From Nitrospirota bacterium (GTDB lineage Bacteria > Nitrospirota > Thermodesulfovibrionia > Thermodesulfovibrionales > JdFR-85): 64,000 nt of DNA. Below are positions 27,994 to 29,318 of the stretch, in pieces (the first letter of the stretch is position 1; the number at the start of each line of letters is the position of its first letter). Position numbers and translations under genes: made by a program. The notes under the pieces are model-generated. The model was not told the DNA's origin. It did not search any database and saw only the letters and a list, made by a program, of their open reading frames with translations. The DNA lies in the NCBI GenBank assembly GCA_035873375.1, contig JAYWMQ010000007.1, positions 1 through 64,000 of the forward strand. Reading direction: 5' to 3'.

Positions 27994-28536
27994 ATGTTGA
28001 TAGAAGAGCGGCTCAGGGAACTTGAAATCGAACTCCCTGAAGCACCCTCCCCCCTCGGCTCTTACACCCCTGCCCTGAAGACCGGAAATCTGCTCTTTCT
28101 CAGTGGAATATTACCCCTGAAAGACGGGACTCTGATTGCAGAGGGTATCGTTGGCAGGGATGTTGATATTGATACTGCCGGAGAGGCAGCACGCCGGATA
28201 GTGGTTAATGCCCTGTCAATCGTCAAGGAGACCTGCGGTCTCGAAAATATCAGCAGGTGCATCAGGCTGAACGGTTATGTTGCTTCAGGGACAGACTTCC
28301 ATGAACAGCCCGCGGTACTGAATGCAGCCTCTGACCTTCTCAGGGAGATATTCGGGGAAAGGGGTATTCACACAAGAACAGCCGTAGGTGTTGCTGTCCT
28401 GCCGATGAATGCACCTGTAGAGATAGATTTTATTTTTGAGGTGAGACCAATAACAGACGGGCAAACAACAGACGGGCAATTACAAAAAAGGATAGGGCAA
28501 CCACAGGGGGGTGCCCCTACCGGGATTGTGCAATGA
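27994..28536 (+). CDS. ridA: RidA/YjgF-family enamine-imine deaminase, C-terminally extended by a REP
   Basis: This RidA-family protein would hydrolyse reactive enamines and imines released by PLP enzymes. The normal core runs to about residue 152 (IDFIFEVRP), with NLLFLSGILPL, IVKETCGLENISRCIRL and TAVGVAVLPMNAPVEIDF matching the longer YjgF branch. The last 27 or so residues (TDGQTTDGQLQKRIGQPQGG...) are encoded by a GGGCAACC-type palindrome and short GACGGGCAA repeats. This tail looks like an insertion that replaced the native stop. The stop overlaps the RAYT start by 4 bases. Confidence 0.85.
   Translation: MLIEERLRELEIELPEAPSPLGSYTPALKTGNLLFLSGILPLKDGTLIAEGIVGRDVDIDTAGEAARRIVVNALSIVKETCGLENISRCIRLNGYVASGTDFHEQPAVLNAASDLLREIFGERGIHTRTAVGVAVLPMNAPVEIDFIFEVRPITDGQTTDGQLQKRIGQPQGGAPTGIVQ
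28452..28520 (+). repeat. REP copy A, overlapping the 3' end of ridA
   Basis: GGGCAACCACAGG...TGCCCCTAC (28495-28520) is a single REP arm, preceded by two AACAGACGGGCAA words (from 28452). It matches the right arms of copies B and C. It is translated as the ridA tail. Confidence 0.85.
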
Positions 28537-29183
28537 AATACAATCCCGACATCCATCACCGCCGTTCCATTCGATTGAAAGGGTACGATTATTCACAGGC
28601 GGGATTATATTTCATAACCTTTTGCACACAAAACCGATTGTGTTTGTTCGGGGAGATTGAAAAAGGAGAAATGATTTTAAATGATGCGGGCATAATGATA
28701 AAAACCGTATGGCATGAAATACCGGAATATTATAATGAATTCAATGTTCATGAATTTATTGTTATGCCAAATCATGTTCATGGAATCATTCAAATCATAT
28801 CCAATCCCGTAGGGGCTGGCCCCCGTGCCTGCCCTATCTGTTGCCACCCTATCTGTGCCTGTCCTACCCCTACCCGCCCTATCAATGAATTTCGACAAAC
28901 AAACGGGCAATCAACAACGAATGGTCGACAGACAACGAATGGGCAACCACAGGGGGATGCCCCTACGATGTCGTTATCAGATATTATACATCGGGTTAAA
29001 ACATTAACCACAAAACGGTATACGGACGGCGTTAAAAATAATGATTGGCCTCGGTTTAACAAAAAATTATGGCAACGCGATTATTACGAGCATATTATCC
29101 GTGATGAAAAATCATATTATCAGATATCAGAGTACATACAAACCAATTCTCTGAAGTGGCAGGATGACGAATATTATGCATAA
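28533..29183 (+). CDS. REP-associated tyrosine transposase (RAYT, Y1/HUH) with an internal REP
   Basis: This 216-residue IS200/Y1-type transposase has the HUH motif VMPNHVHGI (His81, His83) and a tyrosine-rich C-terminal helix (LWQRDYYEHI to EKSYYQISEYI, about 180-202) that should carry the nucleophile. RAYT proteins nick and join single-stranded REP DNA. Residues 91-145 (GAGPRACP... to GQPQGDAP) are encoded by a REP pair (28809-28966), placed between the HUH motif and SLSDIIHRVKTL. The frame stays open. Copies A and C lie directly on both sides. It is a single-copy chromosomal gene, not a mobile insertion sequence. Confidence 0.9.
   Translation: MKYNPDIHHRRSIRLKGYDYSQAGLYFITFCTQNRLCLFGEIEKGEMILNDAGIMIKTVWHEIPEYYNEFNVHEFIVMPNHVHGIIQIISNPVGAGPRACPICCHPICACPTPTRPINEFRQTNGQSTTNGRQTTNGQPQGDAPTMSLSDIIHRVKTLTTKRYTDGVKNNDWPRFNKKLWQRDYYEHIIRDEKSYYQISEYIQTNSLKWQDDEYYA
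28809..28966. repeat. REP copy B, inverted pair inside the RAYT gene
   Basis: The left arm GTAGGGGCTGGCCCCCG... (28809-28834) and right arm ...TGCCCCTAC (28941-28966) are inverted relative to each other, with about 106 bases between. Both begin or end with GTAGGGGC or its complement. It is fully translated in the RAYT gene. Confidence 0.85.
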
Positions 29184-29196
29184 AATCACGAAACCC

Positions 29197-29318
29197 GTAG
29201 GGGCCGGCCCCCGTGCCTGCCCTATGTCTTGCCCAACCCATGCCTGCCCTGACATTGATGAACATCAAGAACAGATGAACATCAAGAACAGCGGGCAACC
29301 ACAGGGGGTTGCCCCTAC
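29197..29318. repeat. REP copy C, inverted pair downstream of the RAYT gene
   Basis: The left arm (29197-29222), GTAGGGGCCGGCCCCCG..., and the right arm (29293-29318), ending TTGCCCCTAC, match copy B. Between them is a 17-base tandem duplication (29257-29273 and 29274-29290, GATGAACATCAAGAACA). It lies in the 218-base gap before der. Confidence 0.85.

Follow-up and report, generated by a model that had tools for sequence, protein, structure and literature searches.

A RAYT gene of a Nitrospirota bacterium carries, in the linker between its HUH motif and its putative catalytic tyrosine, an inverted pair of REP hairpins, and we consider it on the whole probable, if well short of certain, that this RAYT subclass inherits such a pair as a resident cis substrate, kept as a DNA structure. 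The position of the pair, its independence of the reading frame, its conservation at synonymous sites, its match to the REPs of the gene's own flanks, the agreement of REP type with the protein tree, and the existence of genomes in which the REP occurs inside the gene only were all observed directly. The gene lies in the window, i.e. the whole stretch of 64,000 nucleotides that was analysed, for which a preliminary description had claimed an in-frame REP of the RAYT's own type inside the gene; this is borne out by the in-gene pair at 28809-28966.

The RAYT gene and its neighbours

27994..28536, + strand: ridA, extended so as to take in copy A; stop codon TGA overlapping the RAYT ATG (ATGA, 28533-28536)
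28495..28520, - strand: copy A, a single REP in the ridA 3' extension (REP pattern match)
28533..29183, + strand: RAYT gene (Y1 HUH transposase, TnpA-REP subclass 2.4-like), 216 aa; profile match 4er8 'TnpArep', fold match 4er8 and IS608/ISDra2 TnpA
28809..28834, + strand: in-gene left REP, GTAG on the + strand; stem with a single T.T mismatch
28809..28967, + strand: codons of residues 93-145, spanning the in-gene REP pair; modelled coil
28835..28940, no strand: in-gene spacer, 106 nt; its length varies among the three genus orthologues
28941..28966, - strand: in-gene right REP, GTAG on the - strand; stem with a single T.T mismatch
29197..29222, + strand: copy C left REP; C.T mismatch
29293..29318, - strand: copy C right REP; perfect 8-bp stem

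A profile search with the RAYT returned 4er8 as its sole match, and the best Foldseek matches of the structural model include ISDra2 TnpA, IS608 TnpA, and 4er8. Pfam Y1_Tnp matches residues 144-204 with 34.9 bits against a cut-off of 23, a stretch spanning only positions 61-120 of the profile, and NCBIfam REP_Tyr_transpos reaches 64 bits, split in two stretches and below its cut-off of 80. The PNHVH motif occupies residues 79-83, with H81, H83, and Y201 (the putative catalytic Tyr) invariant in A1. The motif table for subclass 2.4 in the main text of Quentin et al. (PMC6006769) gives NH[IFV]H, WQ, and YIxNNP; NHVH and WQ are present in the window RAYT, and the third motif reads YIQTNS, the consensus of the relatives being YIxxNP. 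Judged by its sequence, the RAYT appears to be another member of the published TnpA-REP subclass 2.4 type. Its core shows a dN of 0.031-0.047 against a dS of 0.177-0.263 in three orthologue pairs, and the gene is therefore under purifying selection. Translational coupling is suggested by the overlap of the ridA stop with the RAYT start. The RAYT and ridA of G353 (locus L131) form a single open frame of 387 codons. The gene on the far side of the RAYT from ridA we take, by its sequence, to be der.

REP hairpins at the locus and in the host genome

REPs of the form GTAGGGGC...GCCC were sought at the locus, and two REP patterns gave 3 and 5 matches, with 0 expected by chance (100 shuffles each). 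The RAYT is flanked upstream by the single REP at 28495-28520 and downstream by the inverted pair at 29197-29222 and 29293-29318. The preliminary description had rightly seen that related REPs cluster here, with copy A in the ridA tail, copy B in the RAYT coding sequence, and copy C downstream; its count of three in under 900 bases becomes five, A being a single REP, C an inverted pair, and B, given as residues 91-145, two inverted REPs that lie 106 nt apart and encode residues 93-145.

The only perfect hairpin among the five is that at 29293-29318 (z -3.07). On the GTAG strand the in-gene hairpins fold with z of -1.7 and -1.2, little better than shuffles, and these mismatched in-gene stems in the window's own lineage speak against a resident substrate. 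A hairpin score applied to the window gave 6 real matches (5 of them the REPs) as against 0-6 in 10 first-order resamples; single matches therefore weigh little, and it is the linker statistics that carry the case.

In the host genome, of 2.67 Mb and 99.33% completeness, a search for the right-REP pattern at up to 3 mismatches recovered the three locus sites and one 3-mismatch site (contig C5), and no further copy, as a dispersed cognate REP, was found at up to 2 mismatches; GTAGGGGCN{8,24}GCCC matched 12 places, five of them at the RAYT locus. Given this scarcity of matches elsewhere, the REP is nearly private to the RAYT locus. The preliminary description had looked to other genome copies as a check on the embedding, which is not refuted by their near absence outside the locus, and REPs confined to the gene recur in other genomes. 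No in-gene REP was found in the two of the six other Y1 genes of the host genome readable by the motif script.

The host genome has a further family of GTAG palindromes, GTAGGGGCGGGGTCTCCCCGCCC-like, at C13:65890, C37:37034, and C50:219; no RAYT matching these palindromes, which also occur in G353, was identified. The spacer of the downstream REPs contains an exact 17-nt tandem duplication, GATGAACATCAAGAACA, at 29257-29290, of which one unit or none is seen in the alignment of G396 and G353. The idea that the downstream pair (repeat family D3) is a decayed RAYT fragment was judged by eye and found unconvincing.

Distribution of in-gene REPs

A protein search gave matches in 88 of the 395 genomes of the phylum, from which 110 loci were taken (30 plus 80 stretches of the same match table, some short fragment matches being left out). 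An ORF with both HUH and Y was read in 79 of these loci and none by the motif script in 31; with one locus holding two genes and one gene being a duplicate, the phylum sample comprises 79 distinct genes. A GTAG hairpin lies in the linker of 74 of these 79 distinct intact genes, 5 being without a detected linker REP. A wider scan over the genomes of 84,980 species yielded 80 loci from many phyla, 77 of them intact and 60 with the hairpin; after the removal of 3 duplicates, the hairpin is found in the linker of 57 of 74 genes and went undetected in 17. By phylum, the in-gene hairpin was present in 12/12 genes of Pseudomonadota, 16/20 of Bacteroidota, 3/9 of Chloroflexota, and 1/5 of Cyanobacteriota, among others. 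Where at least 700 nt could be read on both sides (128 genes), 109 had an in-gene REP and 76 a flanking REP. The first forward REP begins 12-54 nt past HUH in the 64 phylum-sample genes having one.

No conserved linker domain without REP DNA was found in the set, and the claim of embedding in the preliminary description stands. Its suggestion of a tolerated transposition trace, if taken as a local accident, is not supported, relatives in many phyla having a REP at the same linker position, as published for subclass 2.4.

Two individual linkers deserve mention. The RAYT at L036 (G365) has a linker of 32 aa in which GTAGGGG is kept and the hairpin is absent, possibly a REP loss allele. The linker at L069 (G016) holds four tandem 51-nt REP units (VGADLRVRPDV repeated), i.e. 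an in-frame REP minisatellite, and near-identical copies of these units lie upstream of the gene.

Cognate match and inheritance

In-gene REPs resemble the REPs of their own flanks: over 42 rows, the median edit distance is 1 as compared with 9 to the flanks of other genes, with none of 2000 permutations as low, and in 8 of the 42 rows the own flanks are no nearer than the median of the other genes' flanks. Such a match would also be expected if REPs repeatedly entered or converted a permissive loop and, having no function there, simply mirrored the ambient REP family. This tolerated insertion with renewal, which we regard as unlikely, accords with locus L027 (G174), where the 89-nt in-gene unit has an identical copy upstream, within a decayed RAYT fragment, although the adjoining coding remnant has diverged, and with the suggestion in the main text of PMC6006769 that the variable region of subclass 2.4 may have little impact on activity.

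Four observations weigh against renewal. Across 153 genes from many phyla, most have a REP at the same position. REP types track the protein tree, with 29 changes on a core-protein tree against a shuffled mean of 55.6 (0 of 200 as low), the tree having been built by a quick method that leaves 39 of 76 inner branches open. Furthermore, there are genomes without any other copy of the pattern from which to renew. G104 has two GTAGGGGC hairpins genome-wide, both inside the RAYT, and G329 has three, of which the RAYT holds two; in G182, G339, and G170 the in-gene pair is the sole one of its type among the matches listed. The right-REP pattern at up to 2 mismatches has one site each in G329, G182, G339, G170, and G325, inside the RAYT, and the single T2 palindrome of G285 likewise lies inside the RAYT. 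The in-gene REP is hence the sole copy of its pattern in seven genomes (G329, G182, G339, G170, G325, G104, and G285), all of them drafts of 91-100% completeness, and does not depend on resupply there.

The fourth observation comes from the genus of the host, in which G353 and G396 have the same RAYT and, at corresponding positions, its REPs. At one stem position, all three orthologues have T in the in-gene left REP and C in the downstream left REP, and the two copies have therefore not been homogenised. The ridA-der junction is empty in G307 and G291, where RidA ends in IFELG or IFEVD, as compared with the window RidA that extends through copy A. A recent local transposition into the window RAYT was rejected, as the orthologues in G353 and G396 share all the REPs and other relatives have them at the same spot.

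Dispersed copies are numerous in other genomes; in G174, for instance, parts of the in-gene unit are matched 57 times, counting the matches within its own gene. At up to 2 mismatches, 59 of the 395 genomes contain the window's right-REP type, many of them without a matching RAYT type, and the T2 double-foot palindrome is present in nine copies each in G284, G023, and G264, in which no T2 RAYT was read in the sample. An exclusive tie of REP type to RAYT presence is not supported, some genomes having the REP without a RAYT of that type seen. Such occurrences, the 8 rows no nearer to their own flanks, the scarcity of RAYT remnants beside flank REPs, and the relatives in which no linker REP was detected all count against the resident-substrate reading. 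Downstream of the RAYT at L025 (G154), remnants of a RAYT C-terminus come after a REP copy, and RAYT copies or parts stand in tandem at L034 and L096. As a general rule, RAYT remnants beside flank REPs are not supported, being few among the 93 genes with flank REPs.

Judging by the same-spot REPs of many phyla and the genomes with in-gene copies only, the enzyme and its target seem to be passed on together, as a single unit.

Conservation of the linker DNA

The hairpins are far more frequent in the linkers than codon choice would give: 74 of 79 phylum linkers have one versus 5.3 (resampled) or 12.0 (permuted) expected under synonymous nulls, and 57 of 74 wider-scan linkers versus 6.1 (resampled) or 10.6 (permuted). 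A control segment before HUH has hairpins in 1/79 phylum genes and 2/74 genes of the wider scan, and the 35 codons from the Y motif onward in 0/79 of the phylum sample. Codon choice in the linker is narrow, with VGA written as GTAGGG in 46 of 49 cases and APT as GCCCCTAC in 44 of 46. Over both sets, the first forward REP is in phase 0 in 82 genes, phase 1 in 30, and phase 2 in 1, a phase-2 GTAG being a stop. One palindrome is read in two frames, as VGARHAVP in L028/L062 and as GRGTACRAPT in L082/L084 (one group, support 92).

Fourfold sites agree in 294 of 326 cases in REP codons versus 327 of 752 in the core, pooled over the 28 pairs formed by eight genes that share the window's REP type, pairs that are not independent; because the gene groups were chosen by REP type, part of this conservation is built in. 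In the distant pair L034-L037, the agreement is 6/24 in the core (near saturation) versus 14/14 in the REP.

The structure might alternatively be kept for its effect on the message, the hairpins slowing or capping RAYT translation or transcription, possibly while the encoded protein is bound to its mRNA; the preliminary description, too, had raised control of the protein or its mRNA by the RAYT's own activity as a possibility. The mid-ORF hairpins are indeed GC-rich, and the overlap of the RAYT start with the ridA stop may couple expression, yet REPs with GTAG on the antisense strand still wobble by the GTAG strand (13 G.T, 3 A.C), the opposite of what such regulation would lead one to expect. 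The corresponding G.T : A.C ratio of GTAG-strand mismatches is 16:1 for sense REPs, the effect being mild and counted by a symmetric detection rule on small numbers of related sequences with some spurious hairpins; autoregulation at the mRNA level is accordingly considered distinctly unlikely.

In the AlphaFold2 model, built from 52 sequences (mean pLDDT 80), the strand bearing HUH (residues 81-88) and helix 148-170 are predicted well and residues 89-147 are coil, with pLDDT block means of about 51-55 over residues 91-140, so that the in-gene segment is modelled as a low-confidence loop outside the RAYT fold. A protein-level function, in which the linker peptide is selected and the DNA pattern is a consequence of its residues, is already disfavoured and seems highly improbable: the linker does stay in frame whatever its spacer length and often reads VGA...APT, but one REP is read in two frames, the hairpin is lost on synonymous recoding in the in silico null, the loop is of low model confidence, and linker dN is 2 to 6 times core dN in three orthologue pairs. 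The linker as a protein domain was discarded on the first three of these grounds.

Relation to known systems

According to the main text of Quentin et al. 2018 (PMC6006769), subclass 2.4 alone has REPs inserted in frame within tnpAREP, as a rule between HuH and Y; the subclass is equated there with RAYT group 4 of Bertels et al. The genes described here share with that subclass the HUH motif NH[IFV]H, WQ, a stretch of variable length or sequence inserted after strand b3 and before helix aC, long and double-foot GTAG REPs, and the in-frame REPs between HUH and Y. The genomes with in-gene copies only, the synonymous conservation, the reading in two frames, and the match to the tree go beyond that main-text description. 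E. coli TnpA-REP (PDB 4er8) appears alike in fold, HUH/Y chemistry, and GTAG foot, a likeness drawn here from sequence and model; it belongs to subclass 2.2 in PMC6006769, whose main text states in-gene REPs to be unique to 2.4. As reported in the text of PMC8266576, the E. coli enzyme recognises and cuts single-stranded REP in a GTAG-dependent manner, and not iREP. In-frame REPs inside other genes are described in the text of PMC3733652, and are similar in being palindromes in frame within coding sequence; those REPs are scattered over unrelated genes, whereas here they occupy one site in one gene family and are cognate to its own flanking REPs. Among main texts, only PMC6006769 was found to treat in-gene REPs in tnpAREP, and no literature on single-copy in-gene REPs or their selection was found. 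What is added to the published kind is evidence for the in-gene REP as a resident copy kept as a DNA structure, together with clean test systems.

Proposed mechanism and implications

Under the resident-substrate reading, the REP pair would occupy a loop tolerated by the RAYT fold and would persist because the encoded enzyme has its cognate substrate in the pair's GTAG-strand hairpin. By analogy with E. coli TnpA-REP, the subclass may bind and nick its own REP; the predicted binding and nicking would happen while the gene is single-stranded, and the binding of the in-gene REP would be what selection keeps. With the substrate lying within the gene, enzyme and substrate would travel and co-evolve as one gene, and REP copies in the flanks and elsewhere would be optional, decayed RAYT fragments holding them at two loci.

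A further step, put forward tentatively as a possibility that we rather doubt, is that the REP pair resides permanently in the RAYT coding sequence, the gene being a self-contained enzyme-plus-substrate replicator of which the dispersed REPs are secondary exports. If this is true, the enzyme may act on its own single-stranded gene, leading to a cis preference or to autoregulation at the DNA level. Genes holding the sole REP of its type represent a minimal one-gene system for how RAYTs keep a matching REP. Given that synonymous recoding can abolish the embedded hairpin and leave the protein unchanged, the roles of substrate, regulation, and protein are separable.
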